Shown here in pieces: positions 1 through 62,481 of a stretch of 64,000 bases of DNA (positions are counted from its first letter, which is position 1; every line of letters begins with the position of its first letter). The DNA is from Domibacillus indicus (GTDB taxonomy: Bacteria; Bacillota; Bacilli; Bacillales; Domibacillaceae), in assembly GCF_023715895.1 (NCBI RefSeq), contig NZ_JAMBOO010000004.1:62001-126000 (forward strand), read 5' to 3'. The notes under the pieces were generated by a model. That model had not been told where the DNA came from. It was given only the letters and a program-made list of their open reading frames with translations, and did no database searches. The position numbers were made by a program, and so were the translations under genes.

Positions 1-191
1 AAGCGTATGTTGAGCGGTTTGCTTTTCCTTTTATCCTGGCAGTCCGGGGCAAAAACAAAGAAGAGATTTTCGCCTCTATACAAGAAAGGCTGCAGCATTC
101 AAAGCAACAGGAACGCGACCGGGCGCTGGCCGAGATCAGCCACATTATCCGCTTTAGAATAGAAGACCAAATAAAAGAAGAAGGAAGCTGA
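1..191 (+). CDS. uraD: OHCU decarboxylase, C-terminal fragment (cut by window start)
   Basis: This is the last 62 codons of a gene that starts before the window; the frame begins at base 3 and stops at 189-191. The visible residues include FAFPFILAVRGK followed by a charged helix with the pattern RDRALAEISHIIRFRIEDQI. Both are characteristic of the C-terminus of 2-oxo-4-hydroxy-4-carboxy-5-ureidoimidazoline decarboxylase, which makes S-allantoin in the last step of urate breakdown. It is 4 bases from uraH, which makes the substrate's precursor chain continuous. In Bacillus subtilis this domain is the N-terminal part of the fused uricase PucL. Here the protein ends right after the domain, so it is not an N-terminal fusion of that kind; what lies upstream cannot be seen. 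Confidence 0.85.
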   Translation, partial: AYVERFAFPFILAVRGKNKEEIFASIQERLQHSKQQERDRALAEISHIIRFRIEDQIKEEGS

Positions 192-195
192 TTCG

Positions 196-549
196 ATGAC
201 TGGATTAACCACCCACATATTAGACCTGGCGCATGGCCGCCCTGCTGAGAGTGTAAAGATTGAGCTTTTTGAACTCAACGGCTCCGAAAAACAGCTTTTA
301 AACCGTGCACAGACCAACTCAGACGGCCGTCTGGATGCTCCGCTTCTTTCCTCGGACAGCATGCGGACAGGAGAATATGAACTATTGTTTTGGATTGGCG
401 ATTATTTTAGAAAAAAAGGGCTCGAGCTGCCGCAGCCTTCTTTTTTGGAAAAGGTCTCCGTACGAATCGGGCTCGATCATTCATCGCCGCATTATCATGT
501 TCCTCTGCTTGTTTCGCCATGGGGCTATCAAGTGTACCGCGGAAGCTGA
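196..549 (+). CDS. uraH: 5-hydroxyisourate hydrolase (transthyretin-like)
   Basis: This 117-residue protein hydrolyses 5-hydroxyisourate to OHCU, the second step of urate degradation in the cytoplasm. The family's signatures are all present: THILD near the N-terminus (His7), the segment HYHVPLLVSPWGY, and the C-terminal YRGS tetrapeptide that ends every active HIU hydrolase. Length is normal for the family. The start ATG is preceded by GAAGGAAG about 10 bases upstream. The gene is 4 bases downstream of uraD and is followed after 36 bases by a flavoprotein gene, so the three probably form one transcript. Confidence 0.93.
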   Translation: MTGLTTHILDLAHGRPAESVKIELFELNGSEKQLLNRAQTNSDGRLDAPLLSSDSMRTGEYELLFWIGDYFRKKGLELPQPSFLEKVSVRIGLDHSSPHYHVPLLVSPWGYQVYRGS

Positions 550-585
550 CGATTTCGTTTTAATCATTTAAAGGAGATGAGAACC

Positions 586-2016
586 ATGAGTATAGAAGCA
601 TTGAATGAACAAGTAAAAACAGATCTTTCTTATTTGGCATTTGGCAGAGAGGGCTGGGTGCATCCGGCCCGTCATTCTGAAGGCCACGTGTATGATGCCG
701 TCATTGTAGGCGGCGGGCAAAGCGGGTTAGGGATTGCTTTTGGCCTTTTGCGCGAGCGTATCTCTAATATTTTGATTATCGATGAAAACAAAGAAGGATA
801 TGAGGGACCATGGGTCACATATGCACGGATGATGACGCTGCGGACACCGAAACATTTAACATCCATTGACCTTGGCGTTCCTTCTTTAACCTTCCGTTCC
901 TGGTGGGAAGCGCAATTCGGGCCGAAGGGCTGGGAAGCTGTCGATAAAATTCCCCGAAGCGACTGGATGAATTATTTACGCTGGTACCGGAAAGTTTTGC
1001 AGCTGCCCGTGATAAACGAAGTGAAGCTTAAGCTCATTGAGCCAATGGAGGAAGGGATTCACCGGATGCATATTGAAGGTCCCGGCGCCCCTTCAAACGC
1101 CCTGCTCGCGCGCAAAGTTATTTTAGCGACGGGGATTCAAGGCGGTGGTGAGTGGCATGTGCCGCCAATGATTTCTGAGAAGCTGCCCCCTGATCTTTAT
1201 GCCCATACGTCCCAAACAATTGATTTTAACGCACTGAAAGGAAAGAAAGTAGCCGTTTTAGGAGGCGGTGCTTCTGCTTTTGATAATGCAAACTTTGCCC
1301 TAACGGAGGGAGTGGCCGAGGCTCATATATTTGTCCGCCGTAAAGAAATGCCAAGAATTAATCCGATTCGCCAAATGGAAGGCTCCGGGATCATTGAGCG
1401 CTTCCATGCGTTATCGGACGAACAAAAATACGCGGTGATGGCTCATTTTTTCAAGCATAATCAGCCGCCGACCAACGATACATTCCAGCGTGCCGCTTCA
1501 TGGCTGGGATTTCATTTGCATCTTGAATCACCCTGGCTTGAGGTGGAAAGCAAAGAGAACAAAGCGTTGGTTACAACACCACATGGCACGTTTTCGTTTG
1601 ATTATTTGATCATCAGCACCGGTCTTGTGACCGATCCAGCGCTGCGCCCGGAGCTGAAGCTCGTTGAAAACGGAATTGCCCGCTGGAGCGATTATTATAA
1701 AGCGCCTGCTGAACGCGCAAACCCGCTTATTGATGCGCATCCGTATCTCAGCCCCGGCTTTGCGTTTATGGGACGGGATAAAGAAGCGCAAAAAAAGCTG
1801 CACGGCCTTTTTGTTTTTAATTATGCAGCGTTAATCAGCTGTGGTATTTCAGCTTCTGCTCTTTCCGGTATGAAATATGGGATTCCTAAAATTGTCTCCG
1901 CGGTAGCTGACCAGCTTTTTCTTGATGATCAAGACACGATTTTAAAACGCTTTTTTGCTTACGATGAATTGGAATTTACAGGAGAATGGACCGGAAAAAC
2001 AGTGCTGGAAGCGTAA
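586..2016 (+). CDS. FAD/NAD(P)-binding monooxygenase-like flavoprotein, candidate urate hydroxylase
   Basis: The 476-residue protein has two dinucleotide-binding motifs: GGGQSG near residue 43 for FAD and GGGASA near residue 224 for NAD(P)H. This layout is that of flavin-containing monooxygenases and related NAD(P)-binding oxidoreductases. The preceding genes handle the two steps after urate oxidation, and no uricase is visible. An FAD-dependent urate hydroxylase of this two-domain type (HpyO, described in Xanthomonas) is known, so I infer, without proof, that this protein may hydroxylate urate to 5-hydroxyisourate. The start is the ATG at 586, 9 bases after AAGGAG; an ATG at 577 overlaps that ribosome site and is less likely. 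A strong terminator follows. Confidence 0.75.
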   Translation: MSIEALNEQVKTDLSYLAFGREGWVHPARHSEGHVYDAVIVGGGQSGLGIAFGLLRERISNILIIDENKEGYEGPWVTYARMMTLRTPKHLTSIDLGVPSLTFRSWWEAQFGPKGWEAVDKIPRSDWMNYLRWYRKVLQLPVINEVKLKLIEPMEEGIHRMHIEGPGAPSNALLARKVILATGIQGGGEWHVPPMISEKLPPDLYAHTSQTIDFNALKGKKVAVLGGGASAFDNANFALTEGVAEAHIFVRRKEMPRINPIRQMEGSGIIERFHALSDEQKYAVMAHFFKHNQPPTNDTFQRAASWLGFHLHLESPWLEVESKENKALVTTPHGTFSFDYLIISTGLVTDPALRPELKLVENGIARWSDYYKAPAERANPLIDAHPYLSPGFAFMGRDKEAQKKLHGLFVFNYAALISCGISASALSGMKYGIPKIVSAVADQLFLDDQDTILKRFFAYDELEFTGEWTGKTVLEA

Positions 2017-2170: not shown

Positions 2171-2863
2171 TTAAATTTGAAAGAGCCAGACGACAATGGG
2201 CCCAAACAGGGAGCCCAGCACAGCGCTGAGCGTCATAGAGACCGAACTCATGGACATGGCAAGTTCCCCGTATTCAAATGCTTTTGAAGTGCCTAAAGCG
2301 TGAGAGGCGCTCCCAAAGGCGATCCCCTTTCCCAACGAACTGCGAATACGCACCCACTTTAAAACCATCGGTCCGAGCAAAACACCGGAAAATCCGGCAA
2401 TCATTACAAATACAACGGTCATAGATGGTACGCCGCCAATCCCGGTGGCGATTTGAATTGCAACGGGTGTGGTAATAGATTTCGGTATAATTGAAAGAAT
2501 TAAATCACGGTCCACTCCGAATACCTCGGCAAATAAAAGCCCGCTGACCATTCCTGAAAAAAGTCCGACCAGTACGCCCCCGAGAATGGGAAAGCCGTAT
2601 TGAAGCAGCACATGGCGCTGCTTGTAAAGTGGATAAGCAAGGGCCACAACGGCTGGGCCGAGCAGGGAACTAATCCACTGGCCGCCGACCATATAGCCGT
2701 TATACGAGATGTGAAACGCTGTCAGCAGCACAATAATCAACACGGTCGTTGTCAGGACCGGGAGAAAAAATGGATAAGGAAACCGCTGATATACCTTCAT
2801 CATTACTAAATAAGCAGCAACGGTAAGTAAAATGATCAGGACTGCGAGAATGAATTGCGGCAT
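2171..2863 (-). CDS. lrgB: LrgB/CidB-family membrane protein
   Basis: This 230-residue protein is almost wholly hydrophobic with about 6-7 membrane segments. It carries the family pattern SIIPKSITTPVAIQIATGIGG in the middle and the glycine-rich FGSASHALGTSKA near residue 185. LrgB/CidB proteins work with LrgA/CidA partners in the membrane. In staphylococci they are linked to murein hydrolase control, while in B. subtilis the paralogue PftAB moves pyruvate. The ATG at 2863 has the ribosome site AAAGGAGA 7 bases away. Its first 28 bases overlap the end of lrgA, so the pair is translationally coupled. Which of the two physiological roles applies cannot be told from the sequence. Confidence 0.93.
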   Translation of the reverse strand: MPQFILAVLIILLTVAAYLVMMKVYQRFPYPFFLPVLTTTVLIIVLLTAFHISYNGYMVGGQWISSLLGPAVVALAYPLYKQRHVLLQYGFPILGGVLVGLFSGMVSGLLFAEVFGVDRDLILSIIPKSITTPVAIQIATGIGGVPSMTVVFVMIAGFSGVLLGPMVLKWVRIRSSLGKGIAFGSASHALGTSKAFEYGELAMSMSSVSMTLSAVLGSLFGPIVVWLFQI

Positions 2864-3237
2864 GTTTTTTTCTCCTTTCGTTTATTGGCCCGCGTCTCCA
2901 GCAGCTGGCTGACAATTCCTGCTGCGGCCATGGTAACGATTGTGCTCAGCACTACAACGAAAAGAAGCACAGCGCCGCTGCTGGAAAAAAGAGACGGATA
3001 ATTGATGACACCCGTCATGGCCGGAATAAACAAAAGAGGAAGAAACGACAATAAAAAACCAGCGCCATTTTCAATCATTTTAACCGGGATGATGTTAAAA
3101 ATTAAACAAAGAAGCATCAGCACTAAACCGATAATACTTCCTGGAATCGGTATATGAAACAGTTGATGAATGGTTTCTCCCAGTACGGAAAAGACATATA
3201 AAATGGCGACCTGCAACACAACTTTTATAGCTTTCAA
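2836..3237 (-). CDS. lrgA: LrgA/CidA-family holin-like membrane protein
   Basis: The 133-residue protein has four predicted membrane helices and the LrgA/CidA signature HIPIPGSIIGLVLMLL near residues 27-42, followed by GAGFLLSFLPLLFIPAM. A basic tail ends the protein. The reading frame opens with TTG at 3237, and no in-frame ATG matches the family N-terminus, so TTG is taken as the start although its ribosome site (AAAGAG) is weak. It forms an operon with lrgB and is divergent from a MarR regulator gene. A near-ideal promoter (TTGACA, 16 bp, TATAAT) lies 130 bases upstream and is covered by a palindrome, which suggests repression by that MarR protein. Confidence 0.9.
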   Translation of the reverse strand: MKAIKVVLQVAILYVFSVLGETIHQLFHIPIPGSIIGLVLMLLCLIFNIIPVKMIENGAGFLLSFLPLLFIPAMTGVINYPSLFSSSGAVLLFVVVLSTIVTMAAAGIVSQLLETRANKRKEKKTCRNSFSQS

Positions 3238-3339
3238 TGTAAGATGCTGCTCTTTAGGTGAAGAACAACGTCCTCCTTTCCGGCCGTCCGGGCCTTTGAA
3301 TTATAATGTGAGAATTTTCTTTACTTTCTGTTTATTTAC

Positions 3340-3352
3340 TTGTACGATACAA
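3340..3352. promoter_or_regulatory. Second MarR-type operator half-turn site
   Basis: The sequence TTGTACGATACAA is an imperfect copy of the core of the main palindrome 5 bases to its right (TTGTATTATACAA). It would fall in the first 20 transcribed bases of lrgA, a position suited to blocking transcription. Assignment to the neighbouring MarR protein is inferred from proximity. Confidence 0.55.
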
Positions 3353-3356
3353 ATAT

Positions 3357-3381
3357 ATATAGTTGTATTATACAACTATAT
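3357..3381. promoter_or_regulatory. Perfect 25-bp palindrome, probable MarR operator
   Basis: Two 12-base arms (ATATAGTTGTAT and its exact reverse complement) flank a single central T. The palindrome covers the -10 box of the lrgA promoter and ends 7 bases before the -35 box of the marR promoter. Size and symmetry are typical of MarR-family operators. Confidence 0.75.
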
Positions 3382-3394
3382 AACACTTTGTCAA
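3367..3394 (-). promoter_or_regulatory. Sigma-A promoter of lrgAB
   Basis: Read leftward, TTGACA (3394-3389) and TATAAT (3372-3367) are separated by 16 bases; both hexamers match the consensus perfectly. The -10 box sits inside the 25-bp palindrome, so an operator-bound repressor would exclude RNA polymerase. Confidence 0.75.
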
Positions 3395-3415
3395 CGAAGG
3401 GAAAGCCTGTATACT
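3388..3415 (+). promoter_or_regulatory. Sigma-A promoter of marR
   Basis: TTGTCA at 3388 and TATACT at 3410 are 16 bases apart, about 25 bases upstream of the marR start codon. Its -35 box overlaps the -35 box of the opposing lrgA promoter, so the two promoters compete. Confidence 0.6.
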
Positions 3416-3436
3416 CAGGGAGGGGAATGAAGAAAA

Positions 3437-3868
3437 ATGGAAAAGCGAAGCCCGGTTGAACGCATCGAGTACGAACTGACTACATTTATCCGGCGGGCGG
3501 TTTATCTCGATAACTCGGAAAAGAAAATCGGAAACCTGGAGCGGTCTGCTTACTTATTATTAAGGCACTTGGATGAGTTTGGTCCGGCACGTGTAAAAGA
3601 GCTGGCAGAATCATTTAAATTAGATATTTCAACCGTTTCAAGGCAGGCAGCGGCTTTAGAAGCAAAGGAGCTGATCATCCGTTTTTCGGATCCTGCAGAC
3701 GGGAGAGTCAGTTTATTCACGGTTACCAAGCTTGGCAAGCAAAAATTGAAAGCGGATAAAAAAATGCGGCTGAAACGATTTGAAAGCATCACGAGTGAGT
3801 GGTCAGCTGATGAAAAACAACTATTTGGCGATCTGCTTATCCGTATGAATGAAGCGTTTTTTGATTAA
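3437..3868 (+). CDS. MarR-family transcriptional regulator
   Basis: The 143-residue protein has the MarR winged-helix layout: an N-terminal dimerisation helix, then SAYLLLRHLDEFGPARVKELAESFKLDISTVSRQ as helix-turn-helix (about residues 36-70), the wing ALEAKELIIRFSDPADGRVSLFTVTKLG with the family's conserved D-x-R motif, and a C-terminal helix. The ATG at 3437 follows GGGAGGGG by about 10 bases. It is divergent from lrgAB and the intergenic region holds two related palindromes, so it very likely represses lrgAB and itself. The effector is unknown. In B. subtilis the comparable holin-like pairs are controlled by LytST or a LysR protein, so a MarR partner is less usual. Confidence 0.92.
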   Translation: MEKRSPVERIEYELTTFIRRAVYLDNSEKKIGNLERSAYLLLRHLDEFGPARVKELAESFKLDISTVSRQAAALEAKELIIRFSDPADGRVSLFTVTKLGKQKLKADKKMRLKRFESITSEWSADEKQLFGDLLIRMNEAFFD

Positions 3869-3883
3869 TAAAGATGAGAAAAG

Positions 3884-3932
3884 GAAGCCTGGTTTGCACT
3901 TTTTTCGGCTGCAGGCAGGCTTTATTTTTTTC
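3884..3932 (+). terminator. Terminator after marR
   Basis: The stem AAGCCTG (3885-3891) / CAGGCTT (3916-3922) is followed by TATTTTTTT. It separates marR from the ldh promoter. Confidence 0.7.
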
Positions 3933-3954
3933 TCAATAAAAATGAATTTGCCTA

Positions 3955-3983
3955 TTGCACGGAAAGAATTCCTGTAGTACAAT
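3955..3983 (+). promoter_or_regulatory. Sigma-A promoter of ldh-lctP
   Basis: TTGCAC (3955-3960) and TACAAT (3978-3983) are separated by exactly 17 bases. The first Rex operator begins 4 bases after the -10 box and thus covers the transcription start, which implies direct repression. The leader to the ldh start codon is about 195 bases long and contains two more Rex sites. Confidence 0.8.
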
Positions 3984-3987
3984 CTAA

Positions 3988-4005
3988 TTGTGAAATGATT
4001 CACAA
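3988..4005. promoter_or_regulatory. Rex operator 1
   Basis: TTGTGAAATGATTCACAA is a nearly perfect 18-bp inverted repeat with the TTGTGAA half-sites known for the NADH-sensing repressor Rex. It covers the predicted start of transcription of ldh. Confidence 0.88.
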
Positions 4006-4044
4006 TTGATTTTGAAGAAACAAATTATATTTTTTTATCAGTTT

Positions 4045-4062
4045 ATGTGAAAAACTTCACAA
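4045..4062. promoter_or_regulatory. Rex operator 2
   Basis: ATGTGAAAAACTTCACAA is a second TGTGAA/TTCACA inverted repeat, in the ldh leader and 57 bases from the first. Confidence 0.78.
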
Positions 4063-4143
4063 ATATTTAAAGAAAAGGAACGGCTGATCATTTTTCAGGT
4101 CAACCATTCAAAACAGCGATTATACAATTTTTTATACAAAAAC

Positions 4144-5130
<987 letters not shown>

Positions 5131-5156
5131 GTATTTTACACAAGGGAGTCCTTCTT

Positions 5157-6728
5157 ATGTTAGTCAGCACGTTTGATCCGTTTCATAATCTGGCACTTTC
5201 CGCTTCTGTTGCTGCGATTCCGATTTTATTGTTTTTACTATGCTTGACCGTCTTAAAGATGAAAGGCATTCATGCAGCACTGGTGAATTTAGCAGTAACC
5301 TTTTTGATCGCCCTGTTTGTTTTTAAGCTTCCCATCGGCGAGTCTGTTGGCAGTGTGATTCAAGGCATTATTCAGGGCATTTGGCCGATTGGCTATATTA
5401 TCGTCATGGCGGTCTGGCTGTATAAAATTGCTGTGAAATCAGGAAAGTTTGATGTGCTGCGCGGCAGTATCGTTGGGATTTCGCAGGACCAGCGCATTCA
5501 GCTGCTGCTGATCGGCTTTTGTTTTAACGCCTTTTTGGAAGGAGCGGCAGGGTTTGGCGTACCGATTGCCATCTGTGCCGTGCTGCTCGTTTCACTCGGC
5601 TACAAGCCTCTGCAGGCAGCGATGCTCTGCTTGATCGCAAATGGGGCTTCCGGCGCTTTTGGCGCCATCGGTATCCCGGTTGGTATTGTCGGCACCTTTG
5701 GCCTTGACGGGGTAACATCCATGAATGTATCGATGATGACAGCTCTGACACTGCCTATCATCAACTTTACGATTCCATTTCTTTTGATATGGCTGATCGA
5801 TGGTTTCAAGGGAATTAAAGAAGTACTGCCGGCTATTTTGGTTACTTCAACGGTGTATACCGTCGCGCAGGCACTGATGACGGTTTTTGTAGGACCGGAA
5901 CTTGCTGATATTATTCCATCTTTACTTGCAATGGGCTTACTTGCTTTATTCCTGCAAAAATGGCAGCCAAAACACATTTTCCTCCTGAACGGCCGGGAAA
6001 TGAAAACAGAAAAGCATTCTGCAGGCGAAGTGATCAAAGCGTGGTCGCCATTTTACTTATTAACGATTTTTGTCCTGATCTGGAGCCTGCCTGTTTTTAA
6101 AGGTTTGTTTGCCGAAGGAGGAATGCTGGCCCAATCGGTCTTGAAATTTGTGATACCAGGATCATCTATTGGAATGAGTGTTGATTTGATTGGTGCAACA
6201 GGGACAGCGATCCTGCTCGCTGGATTAACAACAACCGCTTCAACAGGCGCGATTTCATTAAAAGAAAGTGTGAGGCTGTTACGTAAAACAGTAGCTGAAT
6301 TTTGGATTCCCATTTTGATGATCTGTGCCATTATTGGGATTGCCAAGCTGATGACATATGGAGGCTTAACGGTGGCACTAGGGGAAGCGGTGGCAACAAC
6401 CGGCCAGGTGTTCCCGCTGTTATCGCCTATACTGGGCTGGGTCGGCGTGTTTATGACAGGATCCGTTGTAAACAACAACACACTGTTTGCGCCGATTCAA
6501 GCTACAGCCGGTCATATTATCGGAACAAATCCATCTTTGCTCGTTTCAGCAAACACAGCGGGCGGAGTCATGGCAAAGCTCGTGTCGCCACAGTCCATTG
6601 CGATTGCAACAGCTGCGGTTGGTGAAACAGGGAATGAAGCTGCGCTGACAAAAATGACGATCAAATACAGCTTCGGCCTGCTGGCATTTGTCTGCATCTG
6701 GACATTTGTACTCTCACTGATTTTTTAA
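5157..6728 (+). CDS. lctP: L-lactate permease (LctP family)
   Basis: The 523-residue protein has about 13 membrane segments and the LctP family motifs FLEGAAGFGVPIAI, NGASGAFGAIGIPVG and, near the C-terminus, GSVVNNNTLFAPIQ and GGVMAKLVSPQSIAIA. LctP proteins are proton-coupled lactate transporters of the cytoplasmic membrane. Start ATG follows AAGGGAG by 9 bases. It is co-transcribed with ldh from the Rex-controlled promoter, so lactate made in fermentation can be exported, or lactate taken up, under the same control. A strong terminator directly follows the stop codon. Confidence 0.96.
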   Translation: MLVSTFDPFHNLALSASVAAIPILLFLLCLTVLKMKGIHAALVNLAVTFLIALFVFKLPIGESVGSVIQGIIQGIWPIGYIIVMAVWLYKIAVKSGKFDVLRGSIVGISQDQRIQLLLIGFCFNAFLEGAAGFGVPIAICAVLLVSLGYKPLQAAMLCLIANGASGAFGAIGIPVGIVGTFGLDGVTSMNVSMMTALTLPIINFTIPFLLIWLIDGFKGIKEVLPAILVTSTVYTVAQALMTVFVGPELADIIPSLLAMGLLALFLQKWQPKHIFLLNGREMKTEKHSAGEVIKAWSPFYLLTIFVLIWSLPVFKGLFAEGGMLAQSVLKFVIPGSSIGMSVDLIGATGTAILLAGLTTTASTGAISLKESVRLLRKTVAEFWIPILMICAIIGIAKLMTYGGLTVALGEAVATTGQVFPLLSPILGWVGVFMTGSVVNNNTLFAPIQATAGHIIGTNPSLLVSANTAGGVMAKLVSPQSIAIATAAVGETGNEAALTKMTIKYSFGLLAFVCIWTFVLSLIF

Positions 6729-6741
6729 AAATAAGACCAAT

Positions 6742-6771
6742 AAAAAAAGGAGCGGAGCCGCTCCTTTTTTT
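6742..6771. terminator. Bidirectional terminator between lctP and the next leftward gene
   Basis: AAAAAAAGGAGCGG and CCGCTCCTTTTTTT form a near-perfect hairpin with A/T runs on both sides. It ends both convergent transcripts and slightly overlaps the stop of the leftward gene. Confidence 0.9.
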
Positions 6772-7996
6772 ATTGGTTCCCAAGCAGGGGCCGATCCTGC
6801 CGGTACAGGTCTAAATCAGCACTGTGGCCATCCCGTATATCCTCGGCAATCAGTTTAGCGAGCAGCTGGCTGTATACAGTTCCGTTGTCGCCAAAGGCGA
6901 ATAAAAAGTAGCTGTCCGGGTAATCATCGTATCGGCCGACAATCGGCAGACCATCGACCGTTCCTCCATAAAAAGCCGTGGAATAATACTCAGGCTTTAC
7001 ATTCAGGCCCGGGAATAATGTTTCCAGCTCCTCAATCAGCTTTTTCTTTTTATGCACCAGCTTGCTGTCACGGTCTTCGGGATACGTTGTATTGTCATCG
7101 AGACCGCCGATCAAAATCCGGTTATCCGCTGTTGTCCGCAGGTACAAGTAGGGACGGGCGGTTTCCCAAATCAGCGTACGGTTATGCCAGGCGGATAAGT
7201 CATCGACCGGGCTGGTTGTAACAGTATAGGTGCTTACGAAAGAAGCTTTTTTCTCCTTTTTCACGTCTATTCCATCATATCCCGCTGCGAAAATAACGCG
7301 GCGTGCCCGGATCGAGTGCCCCGTTTTTGTCGACACAACCATGCGTTTTTGCTCACGGTCGTAATGATGGCCATTCACTTCTGTTTCTTCGTAAACCTCA
7401 GCGCCTCTTTTTGCTGCCCACCCGAGCAGGGCGTGGGTAAATTTAAATGGATTCAGTTCGCCATCGTCGTAAGAATAAATCGCGGCTTCTCGGCTGAACG
7501 GATAGTGAGCTTCAATTTTGTCCTTATCCCAAAAACCCAGTTTAAAGCCTTGCTGCTTCAGCCATTCATATTCCTTCTTTAAGGGTGAAACGTCTTCTTT
7601 GGAGCTGGCGGAGTATAAAGTGTCTCGCCGGCTGAATTCAAAATCAAGGTCGACCGTTTTGGAGGCTTCTTCGATTTCATCAATGGCTTCTTTCAGCAAG
7701 CGGGCATGCCGGCTGATATATTCTTCTCCGAATGTATGAATCAGGTCTGTAAACATTTTTTCGCCTGAATATTGAATCAGGGCTGTATTCGTAATCGTGC
7801 TGCCGAAGCCGATTTTTCCTTTTTCCACCACCACTACATCCAAACGGTGGGAAGCAAGGTAGTAAGCGCACTGAGCACCAGAGCTTCCGCCTCCGATAAT
7901 TAAGACATCACAGTTAAGATCCTGATCCAGAGAAGGATAGGACGGGGCATCAGGGAAAGTGGCCGGCCAGTAATACGTTCCAGAATGTAAGTTCAT
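6770..7996 (-). CDS. DadA-like FAD-dependent oxidoreductase
   Basis: This 408-residue flavoprotein has an N-terminal FAD-binding GGGSSGAQCAYYL motif near residue 35. At its C-terminus it has a PIVGRYDDYPDSYFLFAFGDNGTVYSQLLAKLIAED segment, typical of D-amino-acid dehydrogenase / glycine-oxidase-type enzymes (DAO superfamily). The substrate, probably an amine or amino acid, cannot be named. The reading frame is open further upstream, but the ATG at 7996 has the ribosome site CAGGAGGA 6 bases away and is chosen. It stands alone, with a terminator at each end. Confidence 0.82.
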   Translation of the reverse strand: MNLHSGTYYWPATFPDAPSYPSLDQDLNCDVLIIGGGSSGAQCAYYLASHRLDVVVVEKGKIGFGSTITNTALIQYSGEKMFTDLIHTFGEEYISRHARLLKEAIDEIEEASKTVDLDFEFSRRDTLYSASSKEDVSPLKKEYEWLKQQGFKLGFWDKDKIEAHYPFSREAAIYSYDDGELNPFKFTHALLGWAAKRGAEVYEETEVNGHHYDREQKRMVVSTKTGHSIRARRVIFAAGYDGIDVKKEKKASFVSTYTVTTSPVDDLSAWHNRTLIWETARPYLYLRTTADNRILIGGLDDNTTYPEDRDSKLVHKKKKLIEELETLFPGLNVKPEYYSTAFYGGTVDGLPIVGRYDDYPDSYFLFAFGDNGTVYSQLLAKLIAEDIRDGHSADLDLYRQDRPLLGNQ

Positions 7997-8076
7997 TTGT
8001 TTCCTCCTGCGTGTAAAAAACGATACTCTTACTATTTCCAACCTGTTCAGGTCCATACAACGTATATGTAATAAAA

Positions 8077-8112
8077 AATAGAGCAGAAAGCACCCGCTGA
8101 ATCTGCTCTATT
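8077..8112 (-). terminator. Terminator of the sulfite-oxidase-like gene
   Basis: The 11-bp arms AATAGAGCAGA and TCTGCTCTATT form a perfect stem. Read leftward it is followed by TTTTTATT, so it ends the gene at 8130-9197. Confidence 0.8.
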
Positions 8113-8129
8113 GACTTGTAAGCAGTTCA

Positions 8130-9197
8130 TTATTCGACTTTCACTTCAATTTGATCAATGGCATTGTATCCGTAGCCTTTCCGGTTCCAAAACGGGGAGG
8201 CCGGCTGTGTTCGTCCGTAGGAGTCAACCGCTCTTGACATGATCGTGTATTCTCCTTTTTTCTGTGCTTTCCATTCATATGACCAGGAAACCCATCCATA
8301 GCCCGTCTGGGCAGGCTCCTTTTTTGCCGTCAGCCATGTTTGCCCGCGGTCGAAGCTGATTTCTACTTTTGTGATCACGCCTTTGCCGGTCCAGGCAATT
8401 CCTCGTATCATATGCGTTCCGGTGTTTAAGATATCCATATTCAGCGGTTTTTGAATCGTCGAATTGACATTGATATGGGTAACGGGGAACGCATCTTTGT
8501 TTGATTCTTTGTGCGGATAATACACATAGTCGACGGATTGAAAAGGACCTCTATAGTGATCGTCTATAACCGTGATTTGTTTGATCCATTTAACGGAAGC
8601 CATCGCATACCATTGTGGAACGATGAGCCGCAATGGATACCCGTGCTTAAAAGGAATCGGCTGATGATTATATTCATAAGCAATGAGGGTATCAGGGTGA
8701 AGGACCTTTTCGATAGGTAAACTCCTGGCATACGTATACACTTTATTTGAGTCGGTTCTTTTTCCATAGTCATACCCTTCCACTATTACTTCTTTCGCTC
8801 CTTTTTTCATTCTGGCTCTTTCAAGCAGAAGGCGCAGCGGAACACCCTTCCATATACCTTGACTGATCGCTCCTTTTTCCCATTGCTCACCGAATACTTT
8901 AGGATGGAATAAACTTCGTTTGTTCCCTGAGCACTCCAGCACAACTTGAACCGTTTTAGATGGAAGATGAAGAAGGTCTTGTATGGAAAGAAGGGCAGGT
9001 TTAGCCACGCATCCGTTTAAAGGGAGCCAGTAGTTAGAGTAGGAAAGGGAAGGATAAGAAAAATGGTTCCGCCGGTAAAACAATGGATCAGGTACCGTGT
9101 CGGTTTTGAAAAATTGAACGGGTGCTTCCTGGTTTTCCGGCTGCAGGCGATGCGTCCGCAAATAGGGCTTAGCTGCAGGCTTTTTCGCATTAAACAT
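8130..9197 (-). CDS. Sulfite-oxidase-family molybdopterin enzyme
   Basis: The 355-residue protein carries the molybdopterin-binding domain of the sulfite oxidase family, with the Mo-ligand cysteine in VVLECSGNKRS (Cys89), KHGYPLRLIVPQWY, and MASVKWIKQI. A C-terminal Mo-co dimerisation (Ig-like) domain follows from about residue 235 (GIAWTGKGVITKVEISFDRGQTW). There is no heme domain, no signal peptide and no twin-arginine motif, so it is predicted to be cytoplasmic, unlike many bacterial sulfite dehydrogenases. The ATG at 9197 follows GAGGAGGA by 7 bases. Molybdenum cofactor genes mobA and mobB lie 20 kb away in this window. The true substrate (sulfite or another oxo-acceptor) is unknown. Confidence 0.85.
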   Translation of the reverse strand: MFNAKKPAAKPYLRTHRLQPENQEAPVQFFKTDTVPDPLFYRRNHFSYPSLSYSNYWLPLNGCVAKPALLSIQDLLHLPSKTVQVVLECSGNKRSLFHPKVFGEQWEKGAISQGIWKGVPLRLLLERARMKKGAKEVIVEGYDYGKRTDSNKVYTYARSLPIEKVLHPDTLIAYEYNHQPIPFKHGYPLRLIVPQWYAMASVKWIKQITVIDDHYRGPFQSVDYVYYPHKESNKDAFPVTHINVNSTIQKPLNMDILNTGTHMIRGIAWTGKGVITKVEISFDRGQTWLTAKKEPAQTGYGWVSWSYEWKAQKKGEYTIMSRAVDSYGRTQPASPFWNRKGYGYNAIDQIEVKVE

Positions 9198-9307
9198 AAG
9201 TTCCTCCTCGTGAAAAGTAGTCACTTATCTATATGCCGCGCACTTTTTCATTAAGCTATTTGTATTCATCGATTGTGACAAGCAGGGAGCTTAAAGGAGA
9301 AATGAAA

Positions 9308-15748: not shown

Positions 15749-16434
15749 ACGCTTTCCTCTTCAACTGCCATGTACCCCTGGCCGACTTTTGTTTCAATAA
15801 AATGGCCGATCCCGAGTTCATCCAGCTTTTTTCGCAGCCGGTTCACATTAACCGTCAATGTATTGTCGCTGACGAACCGCTCATCGTCCCACAGACTTTT
15901 AATCAGCTTTTCCCGGCTGACAATGTTGTTTTTTTGTTCAATGAGCTGTTTTAAAATAAACATTTCATTTTTCGTTAGTTCGACTGACCCGTACTCATTT
16001 TGAAGAAGGTTTTTATCGTAATCGACTGTAGCACCGCACCAGGCTTTAAGAAGGGACGGGGCAGTACTGTAATTGTAGGCACGCCGCAGCACGGCTTGTA
16101 TTTTGGCAACCAGTACGTCAAAATGAAACGGCTTCTGAATAAAATCATCCGCTCCAAGCTGCATAGACATGACCATGTCAGTCGGGTGGTCGCGTGAAGA
16201 CAGGAATAAAATCGGCACGTTGGAATGGGTACGAATCATTCGGCACCAATGAAAGCCGTCAAATTTCGGCAGCTGGATATCAATAATGACCAAATCAGGC
16301 TTTAGAGCTGTGAATTCTTTCATCACCTGTCCAAAATCGGTAACCCCGTAAACATCATATGACCATTGCGTCAGTCGTTCCCTCGTTTCTTTAAACAGCG
16401 TTTCATCATCTTCAATCAGCAGCAGTTTAAACAA
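15745..16434 (-). CDS. BceR-type OmpR-family response regulator
   Basis: The 229-residue regulator has a receiver domain with the acidic pair IEDDE, phosphoacceptor Asp in LVIIDIQLPKFDG, LFLSS and the KPF lysine, then a winged-helix DNA-binding domain (SVELTKNEMFILKQLIEQKNNIVSREKLIKSLWDDERFVSDNTLTVNVNRLRKKL). It is the usual partner of BceS kinases. I place the start at TTG 16434, 6 bases after GGTGAT, giving the normal family length. A TTG 7 codons earlier also keeps the frame open but lacks a ribosome site. It is the first gene of the kinase operon. Nothing recognisable lies in the 210 bases upstream. Confidence 0.92.
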   Translation of the reverse strand: MFKLLLIEDDETLFKETRERLTQWSYDVYGVTDFGQVMKEFTALKPDLVIIDIQLPKFDGFHWCRMIRTHSNVPILFLSSRDHPTDMVMSMQLGADDFIQKPFHFDVLVAKIQAVLRRAYNYSTAPSLLKAWCGATVDYDKNLLQNEYGSVELTKNEMFILKQLIEQKNNIVSREKLIKSLWDDERFVSDNTLTVNVNRLRKKLDELGIGHFIETKVGQGYMAVEEESV

Positions 16435-16645
16435 ATAATCACCACACTTTTCCAATTATCTTTCTTTTATTGTATCGAAAAGCGGCGGGCAGTTGAATGT
16501 TTTTTTAAACGGAACGAATGGCGTGGGGATCCTTCACCTGCTTTCATTCTGCAACGATATGGTTTCTCCGTTTCCTTCAATTAGAGATTCACTTGCTTCT
16601 ATATTTACAGGATAAAAAGTAAAAAAGGAAAAATAGTCCAATTGT

Positions 16646-17731
16646 TCATGTGTATTTTGTAACCTGAAAAGTCATACTTTCTTTTGAGATTCCGTTTACG
16701 AGAATGACAAGAGTGTGTTCACCTGCATAGTGCTTGCGAGTTGTCATATCACGAAAAGATTGGGTACGGACTATTACTTTGGATTGTCCGGCTGCAAGGT
16801 GAGTGTCTGAAAGCTGAAATACTTTCCGGCTTGGACGGCCGTTTTTTTTCATATAGTCAATCGCATATTCAACTCGTACTTTTGTATCGAGTGCGGCATG
16901 GAGTTCTACTGAAAAATGCAGGGACTCGCCAATCACAACTGTCTGTTTTTCAAGGGTGAGCCGTTGAACGGAAACGTGCTCACTGTCTGGATAACCGAAC
17001 AGGCGGAGGACATCCGCATTTCCCTGCTTGAGCAATGTACGGGCGGCATGGCGCAGGATCCAGTCGGTATAAGGATGCTGTCCATACCGCTGGCGGATAA
17101 ACTCAATAACAAGGTCAGGGTGTGTTTTTGAAATATCATTTAAATGGTTCGCGACACTTTTTCGTACATACAGTGAATCATCCTGCATAAGCGGCTCAAG
17201 CAGCGCAAAAAGCGGGGCGGGGTCTTGTTTAAAAGCTGGGATCGACTGTGCCCATGGCAGCTGCGGGCGGGCGCCTTCGCTTGCGAGCCGGCGTATATGT
17301 TCATTGCTGCTTTTTGTCCATTTCATCATCTGAGAAAGCATGCGTTCTTGATCCTGCAACAGAAAAGGCCGGACGGCAAACTCAGAAGTGGAGTATACGG
17401 TTAACCGGGCAAGCGCGTCCATCGATTTTTCCCAGAAGGCAAGCCCATACTGCTCTACATAATCCGGAAATACAAGTCCTTCCAGCTGTTTGAACGGAGG
17501 AGCTGCATCCAGCAGCACAGGGAGCGCTTCTGGAAAAGATTTATTGACCCCCACATACATCGCAGTCGATAACTGGCGAACACGTTGTTTAAGAGCCAGA
17601 GACTCCCATTCTTCTTGATACACACAGTTTAAGAATGCTTTTCGGTTAAAGGACAAGTCAGCCCGCTCAAGCGTATTGGCTAATGAATCGATAAAGTCAT
17701 TATTGTATATATCTTTTAAATCTGCCATCAT
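16646..17731 (-). CDS. AlkC-type DNA alkylation repair protein
   Basis: The 361-residue protein has an N-terminal array of HEAT-like helical repeats (to about residue 255, including LYVRKSVANHLNDISKTHPD and WILRHAARTLLKQG). A C-terminal immunoglobulin-like beta domain follows (about 262-361). This combination is specific to the AlkC branch of the AlkC/AlkD glycosylases, which excise 3-methyladenine-type lesions without flipping the base. The start ATG ATG follows AAAGGAG by 8 bases. It is a lone leftward gene with no visible damage-box palindrome upstream, and none of its neighbours has a repair role. The 16456-16645 gap beyond its stop holds nothing I can recognise. Confidence 0.82.
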   Translation of the reverse strand: MMADLKDIYNNDFIDSLANTLERADLSFNRKAFLNCVYQEEWESLALKQRVRQLSTAMYVGVNKSFPEALPVLLDAAPPFKQLEGLVFPDYVEQYGLAFWEKSMDALARLTVYSTSEFAVRPFLLQDQERMLSQMMKWTKSSNEHIRRLASEGARPQLPWAQSIPAFKQDPAPLFALLEPLMQDDSLYVRKSVANHLNDISKTHPDLVIEFIRQRYGQHPYTDWILRHAARTLLKQGNADVLRLFGYPDSEHVSVQRLTLEKQTVVIGESLHFSVELHAALDTKVRVEYAIDYMKKNGRPSRKVFQLSDTHLAAGQSKVIVRTQSFRDMTTRKHYAGEHTLVILVNGISKESMTFQVTKYT

Positions 17732-17962
17732 TCGTCAGCTCCTTTCTGCCAGTATAACATATGCACGAATGTATGTTTGTTTCGTGTGTGAATCCTGGCA
17801 AACCATAGCGGATTGCAGTCTTTTCTGCTTGTATAAGGTCTTTTTTATGATGAATGATCACCAGCAGGAAACGGATAAGGTAAAAAGAAACAGCTGGAAA
17901 GCGCGTTTAAGGGTACTTCCCAAAAGGATAAGAATATAGTGGAAAGATTTTTTAGACTATGT

Positions 17963-17980
17963 TTGTGAAGTATTTTACAA
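17963..17980. promoter_or_regulatory. Rex-like operator upstream of the dicarboxylate transporter
   Basis: TTGTGAAGTATTTTACAA matches the Rex consensus TTGTGAAATATTTCACAA at 16 of 18 positions and ends 21 bases before the start codon of the transporter. It closely resembles the three sites in front of ldh in this window. The remainder of 17732-17960 shows no clear feature. Confidence 0.5.
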
Positions 17981-18001
17981 TGTAAGAAGAAAGGAGAGAG
18001 A

Positions 18002-19444
18002 ATGATGAGTAAAAACAAGATGCCTGCTCGGGGAAAGGGAGAAGTAAGGCTTGGTCTTCTTTTTTTAACGCTTTTAATTGGAGCACTTATTTGGTTTGTT
18101 CCTGCACCGTCTGGACTCTCGTCTCAGGCATGGCATTTATTCGCTATTTTTGTAGCCACCATTATTGGGCTTGTAGTTAAGCCCATGCCAATGGGCAGTG
18201 TGGCTGTTTTAGCCCTGACCGCAACGGTTTTAACACAGACACTGACCATTGAAGAAGCGCTCAGTGGGTTTCAAAACACGACGATCTGGCTGATCGTCAT
18301 TGCTTTCTTTATTTCAAGAGGATTTATCAAAACCGGCCTTGGCACCCGGGTTGCGTACATGTTTGTGAAAAAGTTCGGTAAGAAAACACTTGGCTTGTCT
18401 TATTCGCTTGTGGCAAGTGATCTTATTCTGTCTCCGGCGATGCCGTCCAACACAGCCAGAGCCGGCGGTATTTTACTTCCAATTGTCCGGTCGCTGTCTG
18501 AAGCGTACGGCTCCCGGTCAGGAGATGGAACGGAACGAAAGGTAGGGGCGTTTTTAACAACGGTTTCCTTTCATGGAGATATGGTCACATCCGCCATGTT
18601 TTTAACAGCGATGGCAGCCAACCCGCTTGCAGCACAAATTGCCGGAGACATTACCGGCGAACCAATTTCGTGGGTCGGCTGGGCCGCAGCTGCGTCTGTG
18701 CCAGGTCTGCTCAGCCTGCTGCTTATTCCATATGTGCTGTACAAGCTGTACCCGCCGGAAGTGAAAGAAACACCGGCTGCACCCCAAATGGCCACCCAAA
18801 AATTAAAAGAGATGGGTCCTTTAAAAAGAGAAGAGTGGTTTATGATCGGTGTGTTTGTCCTGATCTTAGCTTTGTGGATTTTCGGAACAAACTTTGGCAT
18901 CAGCGCTACGACAACGGCTTTTATCGGACTTGTCGCGCTGCTGATCACTCAAGTGCTGAGCTGGTCGGATATTAAAAAAGAAGAAGGTGCGTGGGATACG
19001 CTCGTCTGGTTTGCGGTTTTGGTTATGATGGCCGGCTTCTTAAACGATCTCGGTATGATTCCATGGTTTACGGATACAATGAGAGGGGCCGTCAGCGGCA
19101 TGTCCTGGCTATGGACACTGGTCGTTTTGGCTGTCGTTTATTTTTACTCTCATTATCTTTTTGCGAGCAACACGGCTCATGTCAGTGCCATGTACGCCGC
19201 TTTTCTGGCTGTGATCGTGGCTGCCGGAGCTCCGCCGGTTGCCTCTGCTCTTTTGCTCGGCGTATTCAGTAATTTGTTCGGCTGCTTAACTCATTACAGC
19301 AGCGGGCCGGCACCTGTATTTTTTGGTGCGGGTTATGTAACACAAAGTAAATGGTGGACGCTCGGGCTGATCATTTCCATTGTTCATTTAATTGTCTGGC
19401 TTGGAGTCGGCGGTGCCTGGTGGAAGGTGCTTGGTCTTTGGTAA
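18002..19444 (+). CDS. DASS-family anion transporter (YflS-like di/tricarboxylate carrier)
   Basis: This 480-residue protein has about 12-13 membrane helices and both SNT signature motifs of the divalent anion:Na+ symporters: SPAMPSNTARAGGILLPI (near residue 147) and FASNTAHVSAMYAAFL (near 388). Family members carry malate, succinate, 2-oxoglutarate or citrate; B. subtilis YflS is a malate transporter of this type. ATGATG follows AAGGAGAG by about 6 bases. Its stop codon overlaps the start of the methyltransferase gene (TAATG). A Rex-like operator precedes it, which would tie dicarboxylate transport to the redox state. Confidence 0.9.
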   Translation: MMSKNKMPARGKGEVRLGLLFLTLLIGALIWFVPAPSGLSSQAWHLFAIFVATIIGLVVKPMPMGSVAVLALTATVLTQTLTIEEALSGFQNTTIWLIVIAFFISRGFIKTGLGTRVAYMFVKKFGKKTLGLSYSLVASDLILSPAMPSNTARAGGILLPIVRSLSEAYGSRSGDGTERKVGAFLTTVSFHGDMVTSAMFLTAMAANPLAAQIAGDITGEPISWVGWAAAASVPGLLSLLLIPYVLYKLYPPEVKETPAAPQMATQKLKEMGPLKREEWFMIGVFVLILALWIFGTNFGISATTTAFIGLVALLITQVLSWSDIKKEEGAWDTLVWFAVLVMMAGFLNDLGMIPWFTDTMRGAVSGMSWLWTLVVLAVVYFYSHYLFASNTAHVSAMYAAFLAVIVAAGAPPVASALLLGVFSNLFGCLTHYSSGPAPVFFGAGYVTQSKWWTLGLIISIVHLIVWLGVGGAWWKVLGLW

Positions 19445-61845: not shown

Positions 61846-62481
61846 ATGGTACAAATGATGACAAATGGTGTGTACCGGTTTTGTGAATGGGTGACCCGCC
61901 TTGCTTATTTAAACGTTTTATGGATAGCGTTTTCACTGGCGGGTCTGCTCGTTCTTGGCTTTTTTCCTGCGACGGCTGCCCTGTTTGCAGTCACACGCAA
62001 ATGGGCCATGGGGGAAACAGATATACCTGTTTTTCGGACATTTTGGCGTACGTATAAGGAATTGTTTTGGCGGTCCAACCGACTTGGCCTTACGCTGACG
62101 CTGCCCGCTGTTTTATTTGGTGCGAACTTTATGATCTTTGAGCAATATGGAGCGCCGCTTCCATTTATGCCGTTTCTGTTAACAAGCTTTTTTTTGTTGT
62201 ATAGTGTGGTTGCATTATTTGTTTTTCCGGTGTATGTTCACTATAACGTTCCGCTCAAACAAACGGTCAAGTATTCACTTTTGATCGGGCTGCTGCGCCC
62301 TGTTCATACCGTGCTGATGATTGCGAGTCTGATCGGAATGGCATATGTTATGATGCAGCATATTACGTTTGTGTTGTTCTTTAGTGGAAGCGCTTTCGGG
62401 TTTGTGCTTATGTGGTTTGCGATGAAGGCATTTCATAAGGTAGCGGAAAAGCAGGAAGAAGCCTCTCTGCAGCAAACGTAA
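61846..62481 (+). CDS. DUF624 membrane protein (YesL/YteU type)
   Basis: The 211-residue protein has five to six membrane helices and the DUF624 pattern. Near the start are RLAYLNVLWIAFSLAGLLVLGFFPATAALFAVTRKW and FWRTYKELFWRSNRLG; the middle has FPVYVHYNVPLKQTVKYSLLIGLLRP. In B. subtilis YesL and YteU are found beside YesM-type kinases and CUT1 transporters for rhamnogalacturonan sugars; their job is unknown. ATG follows AAAAGGGGA by 8 bases. The kinase gene starts 28 bases after its stop codon. Confidence 0.88.
   Translation: MVQMMTNGVYRFCEWVTRLAYLNVLWIAFSLAGLLVLGFFPATAALFAVTRKWAMGETDIPVFRTFWRTYKELFWRSNRLGLTLTLPAVLFGANFMIFEQYGAPLPFMPFLLTSFFLLYSVVALFVFPVYVHYNVPLKQTVKYSLLIGLLRPVHTVLMIASLIGMAYVMMQHITFVLFFSGSAFGFVLMWFAMKAFHKVAEKQEEASLQQT

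Follow-up and report, generated by a model that had tools for sequence, protein, structure and literature searches.

Among the closest described counterparts of the enzyme proposed here are two flavoproteins, namely HpxO, a class A, PHBH-like enzyme, and HpyO, a Xanthomonas urate hydroxylase that Michiel et al. 2012 are said to have described as using NAD(P)H and FAD. HpxO has been treated in Acinetobacter (PMC10117892) and in Klebsiella (PMC5270733). In Doniselli et al. 2015, the urate oxidases listed are Uox, HpxO, HpyO, and PuuD, the HpyO family is kept distinct from the HpxO hydroxylases, and uricase is described as a cofactor-free enzyme (PMC4562309). This PuuD survey regards the set of urate oxidases as complete with PuuD and states that uricase prevails in monoderms (PMC4562309). 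Other reports indicate that FAD-dependent urate hydroxylases have been named in Gram-positive strains by genome annotation (PMC10460076, PMC12029181, and PMC12732358) and that a uric-acid-dependent Bacillaceae strain carries six pucL copies (PMC11332149). Among the titles and abstract openings of the open literature that were searched, we found no description of a Gram-positive class B-like urate hydroxylase.

The locus considered here belongs to Domibacillus indicus (genome size 5.08 Mb) and was analyzed in a window of 64,000 nucleotides (positions 62,001–126,000 of contig NZ_JAMBOO010000004.1), in which positions 1–2016 hold the tail of an operon that runs NCS2 permease, uraD, uraH, and a gene for a 476-aa flavoprotein. 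We propose, with a probability of roughly 85%, that this last gene (586–2016) encodes a urate 5-hydroxylase that replaces uricase (PucL), and whose substrate, cofactors, and chemistry we infer. As the survey describes it (PMC4562309), HpyO resembles the window protein in being a non-HpxO flavoprotein that takes the place of uricase next to uraH and uraD. The two proteins, compared by description only, differ in that HpyO is known from Gram-negative bacteria. HpxO (Klebsiella, Acinetobacter) likewise stands in for uricase in a uraH/uraD operon and has the reaction proposed here (urate, NAD(P)H, and O2 to 5-hydroxyisourate), but its model NF033623 has no match to the window protein, which has two dinucleotide-binding domains and a predicted class B-like fold. 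Uricase (Uox/PucL, PF01014) serves the proposed pathway step, and it and the flavoprotein replace one another in the window's order, although uricase is an unrelated protein that is absent from the window genome. PuuD, a membrane cytochrome c urate oxidase, is an alternative to uricase that was found by similar profile reasoning, according to the same survey (PMC4562309). It is, however, unrelated to the flavoprotein, and PF06181 had no match in any of the 249 genomes sampled from the window's order, the window genome included, so that PuuD was rejected as their urate oxidase.

Operon structure and searches for other urate oxidases

In the numbering of locus L001, the + strand carries an MpsC-like small gene (15839–16189), which takes its name from the annotation of a Priestia plasmid homologue and has no Pfam family match, then the NCS2 permease gene (16354–17661; PF00860, E 1.3e-123) and uraD, encoding OHCU decarboxylase (17686–18192). 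The window's left edge truncates uraD, which starts 315 bases upstream; its 3' end occupies window positions 1–191 (+ strand), with the C-terminus at 3–188 (PF09349, E 1.1e-14) and the stop codon at 189–191. The next gene, uraH for 5-hydroxyisourate hydrolase (window 196–549, L001 18197–18550, + strand; PF00576, Transthyretin, E 5.1e-34), is over the TIGR02962 cut-off (124.6 bits vs 87.45), and the family assignments of uraD and uraH in the original prediction, made by inspection of the window, are thus borne out by PF09349, PF00576, and TIGR02962. The flavoprotein gene (586–2016, + strand; Pyr_redox_3, E 1.9e-17; NAD_binding_9, E 3.4e-13) was observed to follow uraH, as had been claimed, and encodes the sole predicted oxidoreductase between the permease and the terminator.

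A hairpin followed by a T run (2110–2160, + strand) is the probable terminator of the urate operon and, from the opposite side, of lrgB. The fold of 2095–2175 has an energy of -38.3 kcal/mol (z -6.98), with 0 of 200 shuffles equally low, and the hairpin is absent from the output of the terminator consensus scan. The lrgB/lrgA pair faces the operon end across this hairpin from the opposite strand. The adjoining region (2171–9224) is ordinary-looking, comprising lrgB, lrgA, and genes for a MarR regulator, L-lactate dehydrogenase, lactate permease, a DAO-type oxidoreductase, and a sulfite-oxidase-like molybdoenzyme. Upstream of the operon, no Rfam match to an RNA element was obtained (L001 13000–18601), and five promoter-like sites were found vs 4.2 expected.

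No uricase lies just upstream. None of the open reading frames from the permease to the end of the flavoprotein gene is a uricase, and a search of the full genome with PF01014 gave no match, although the Bacillus subtilis control did; an overlooked uricase is thereby ruled out, and on this point the original prediction withstood the result that would have counted against it. HpxO (NF033623), for which the seven best candidates were scored per genome, was over the cut-off in none of the 249 genomes. The window genome's best match reached 182 bits vs a cut-off of 500 and is located on another contig, and class A relatives of HpxO below the cut-off matched at E 0.001 in 207 of the 249. Such relatives being all that was found, HpxO was rejected as the urate oxidase of these genomes. 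A styrene-monooxygenase-like gene was also considered as the real urate oxidase and rejected, none being seen upstream of the window's operon by reading.

Sequence and predicted fold of the flavoprotein

Two possible starts share the gene end at 2016, the first ATG at 577, which gives 479 aa, and an ATG at 586, which gives 476 aa. The sequence AAGGAG (571–576) lies 9 bases ahead of ATG 586, and the length of 476 residues given originally fits this start; residues are numbered here from ATG 577. Both glycine motifs attributed to the third gene were recovered, GGGQSG at residues 45–50 and GGGASA at 229–234, and 10 of these 12 positions do not vary across 61 aligned sequences (S49 and A234 do). 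These conserved motifs appear compatible with the use of FAD and NAD(P)H. The protein matches six Pfam families, with PF13738 over its cut-off; PF01014 is not among them, in agreement with the claim that the third gene encodes two dinucleotide-binding motifs rather than a uricase. Seven NCBIfam models matched at E 0.001, none over its own cut-off, and the HpxO model NF033623 (cut-off 500 bits) was not one of the seven. The nearest named relative found is from Domibacillus sp. PGB-M46 (96% identical), and no relative was found on viral contigs.

A structural model built from the 61 sequences (pLDDT 87.2, pTM 0.86) has as its best fold matches the class B N-hydroxylating monooxygenases PvdA, KtzI, and SidA. 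The match to PvdA (3s61) gave Z 29.3 over 379 residues at 3.1 A, that to KtzI Z 29.1, and that to 4usr Z 26.7, while the best Foldseek E was 1.6e-18, with 13%–17% identity among the matches listed. Among proteins of solved structure, the small FMO 4usr is the nearest in sequence, a weak match at E 3.8e-06. No class A hydroxylase was present among the best 50 matches listed in either fold search, which does not prove that the folds differ. The two dinucleotide-binding domains and the matching fold of the model place the flavoprotein, as modeled, in the class B flavoprotein monooxygenases in the broad sense. The N-hydroxylating enzymes (PvdA, KtzI, SidA) and the small FMOs (4usr, 4a9w) are thus alike in fold, but differ in their substrates and share 14%–18% identity over the aligned part; the top structural matches of the model act on amines rather than purines.

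The classical FMO fingerprint is FxGxxxHxxx(Y/W). The window protein keeps only its His (H210, invariant in the 61 sequences), whereas it has other residues in place of F, G, and Y/W, and judged by this motif the protein is outside the flavin-containing monooxygenases in the narrow sense. The description of the protein as FMO-like therefore holds for the class B-like fold of the model, but not for the fingerprint, most of which is missing. We take K22879 to be the HpyO entry. One table row of PMC13210998 assigns this identifier, for FAD-dependent urate hydroxylase, to a short segment of a flavin-containing monooxygenase of COG2072, and on the strength of that row a class B-like origin shared with HpyO is plausible.

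Distribution with uraH and uricase

With carriers of the flavoprotein called at E up to 1e-60, the 249 genomes of the window's order contain the flavoprotein in 23 and uricase in 23, with an overlap of zero. All 46 of these genomes have uraH, which was found in 48 (47 over the cut-off), leaving two uraH genomes (G140 and G156) with neither enzyme. In G140, uraH survives as a 22-bit fragment containing a stop, at a site that on reading resembles a decayed puc locus. In G156, uraH is intact (G156:C57:166144–166488, L121) and adjoins a gene with weak similarity to FAD subunits of molybdopterin dehydrogenases; this genome has no flavoprotein, uricase, PuuD, or HpxO over the cut-off. Carriers and uricase genomes bear 10 family labels each, with three in common, and the rule linking uraH to the flavoprotein recurs across families; genus g46 includes three carriers and three uricase genomes, none with both. 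The uraH gene is located within 5 kb of the flavoprotein gene in 8 of the 23 carriers. In one genome (G241:C1:75047–76455), the flavoprotein match is split into two overlapping pieces, each in its own open frame, as a frameshift or a sequencing error would produce.

A second sample of 198 genomes, from the order of Paenibacillus rigui, contains the flavoprotein in 61, uraH in 115, and uricase in 76. The flavoprotein is carried by all 39 genomes that have uraH but not uricase, every uraH genome has at least one of the two enzymes, and one of the 83 uraH-negative genomes is a carrier (G443). In 10 of the 61 best matches in this order, the aligned stretch includes one stop codon, with open frames of 469–524 aa. 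When the two orders are pooled, the flavoprotein is carried by 62 of 64 uraH-positive, uricase-negative genomes and by 1 of 284 uraH-negative genomes. The flavoprotein thus occurs with uraH and accounts for the uraH genomes without uricase, and the two are found together far more often than chance would allow (Fisher p for carrier vs uraH of 1.8e-19 in the window's order and 3.3e-17 in the Paenibacillus order, values that are too small because the genomes are related).

Uricase was found in none of the 23 carriers of the window's order vs 21 of the 61 in the Paenibacillus order (G291, G296, G314, G325, G328, G331, G336, and 14 more). Screening of uricase and uraH in 48 named carrier genomes, drawn from 80 named loci, gave uricase in 7 and uraH in 44, with the four that lack uraH also lacking uricase; two of the seven with uricase (G253 and G259) have two uraH genes each. 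Since carriers with uricase exist, both enzymes can coexist, and in some Paenibacillus the flavoprotein may be redundant or may have shifted in function. The originally predicted non-orthologous replacement of PucL, a matter of inferred activity, is accordingly supported by the uraH link and by complementarity with uricase, but exclusivity fails in the Paenibacillus order.

This coexistence would also fit a flavoprotein that carries out another purine step (e.g., xanthine to urate, or the conversion of a modified purine), with the urate oxidase being a still unknown protein, and relatives of the flavoprotein family adjoin molybdo-hydroxylase subunits in Mesorhizobium. However, a xanthine step does not predict that nearly every uraH-positive, uricase-negative genome of the pooled sample would be a carrier, and a second unknown gene of the same pattern would be required, making this explanation improbable in our estimation. 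Slimmer still are the chances that the flavoprotein aids uricolysis without oxidizing urate, by acting on a by-product or protecting unstable intermediates, while urate is oxidized non-enzymatically or by a promiscuous class A hydroxylase. The class A relatives of HpxO described above, which are common and include one in the window genome, would suit this reading, but they are found everywhere, even without uraH, and therefore do not explain the pattern; moreover, in the window's order no genome with uricase carries the flavoprotein. The flavoprotein is present in nearly all sampled relatives that have uraH but lack uricase, and it therefore probably does uricase's job, by a different chemistry.

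Gene neighbourhoods and the proposed reaction

For the 80 named Bacilli loci, flanking sequence of at most 8 kb was fetched, in some cases shortened by a contig end; uraD or uraH was present in 17 and neither in 63. The order uraD-uraH-gene, as in the window, occurs in two Domibacillus, Ectobacillus, Priestia abyssalis, and a Bacillus, and uraD-gene-uraH in Neobacillus, Robertmurraya, Metabacillus, and others, while three members of the Paenibacillus terrae group have uraD-uraH ~4 kb upstream of the flavoprotein gene, and the arrangement in Anaerobacillus is divergent. A gene for a UbiD-family decarboxylase was seen near the flavoprotein gene at 12 Bacilli loci (including L071 9501–11405), all 12 outside the urate-gene arrangements.

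Plasmids also carry the flavoprotein gene. On Priestia filamentosa plasmid CP136440.1, five genes are in an order identical to that of the window, and the flavoprotein, 77% identical, is annotated merely as an NAD(P)/FAD-dependent oxidoreductase. A styrene/indole monooxygenase-family gene (L002 3870–5048; PF17885, E 1.2e-29) is located just upstream of this urate operon. A Tn3-family transposase gene lies ~4 kb downstream, and the operon may therefore be mobile. Alphaproteobacterial plasmids have the order uraD-gene-uraH in Novosphingobium (61% identical), Sphingobium (59%), and Niveispirillum (46%). In Novosphingobium, the open frame of the flavoprotein overlaps that of uraD on one side and that of uraH on the other, by 4 bases each, and the cluster includes genes for a class V aminotransferase, a polysaccharide-deacetylase-family protein, presumably PuuE-like, and an NCS2 permease. 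More distant relatives (31%–43% identical) are found in non-urate contexts, often beside ABC transporters; those at plasmid loci L006, L099, L111, L113, and L118 are near ABC transporters, LysR regulators, and a gene annotated "peroxidase-related enzyme". In a tree made by a quick method, with SH-aLRT support only and with L087–L090 and L121–L125 left out, Bacilli and Sphingomonadaceae form one strongly supported group (84 of 102 sequences) with Niveispirillum outside, and long branches make the deep joins uncertain.

A merely coincidental link to urate genes, with an unrelated role for the flavoprotein, would suit the 63 named loci whose fetched flanks lack uraD and uraH, but is made very unlikely by the genome profiles, with their genome-wide uraH co-occurrence in two orders, and by the recurrence of uraD-gene-uraH in two phyla, with overlapping frames in Novosphingobium.

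As a urate 5-hydroxylase, the flavoprotein would have its bound FAD reduced by NAD(P)H, the reduced FAD would combine with O2 to yield a C4a-(hydro)peroxyflavin, and one oxygen would then be placed onto urate C5 to give 5-hydroxyisourate, water, and NAD(P)+. Reduction by NAD(P)H, formation of a C4a-(hydro)peroxyflavin, and oxygen transfer are established flavin chemistry. UraH would hydrolyze 5-hydroxyisourate to OHCU, from which UraD would form (S)-allantoin by decarboxylation, and the co-encoded NCS2 permease would probably import urate or xanthine. Unlike uricase, a coupled flavoprotein urate hydroxylase would release no H2O2.

The window protein is probably a new member, from a Gram-positive bacterium, of the group of flavoprotein urate hydroxylases. 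A further-reaching interpretation, which we hold only tentatively and consider doubtful, would make it a fifth, independently evolved urate oxidase, which would have a class B fold resembling that of N-hydroxylases, would share no ancestry with Uox, HpxO, or PuuD, and would not be an ortholog of HpyO, present in about half of the sampled uraH genomes in the Bacillus-type order, and common to Bacilli and Alphaproteobacteria. Soluble urate oxidation without H2O2 release, if true, would be of interest for urate-lowering enzymes. In the window's order, the flavoprotein is found as often as uricase (23 vs 23 of 249), and in the Paenibacillus order no genome with uraH but without uricase lacks it (39 of 39 carry it). 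Given these frequencies, its generic annotation, and the lack of any NCBIfam model over its cut-off, much of Gram-positive uricolysis may use a not-yet-assigned enzyme.
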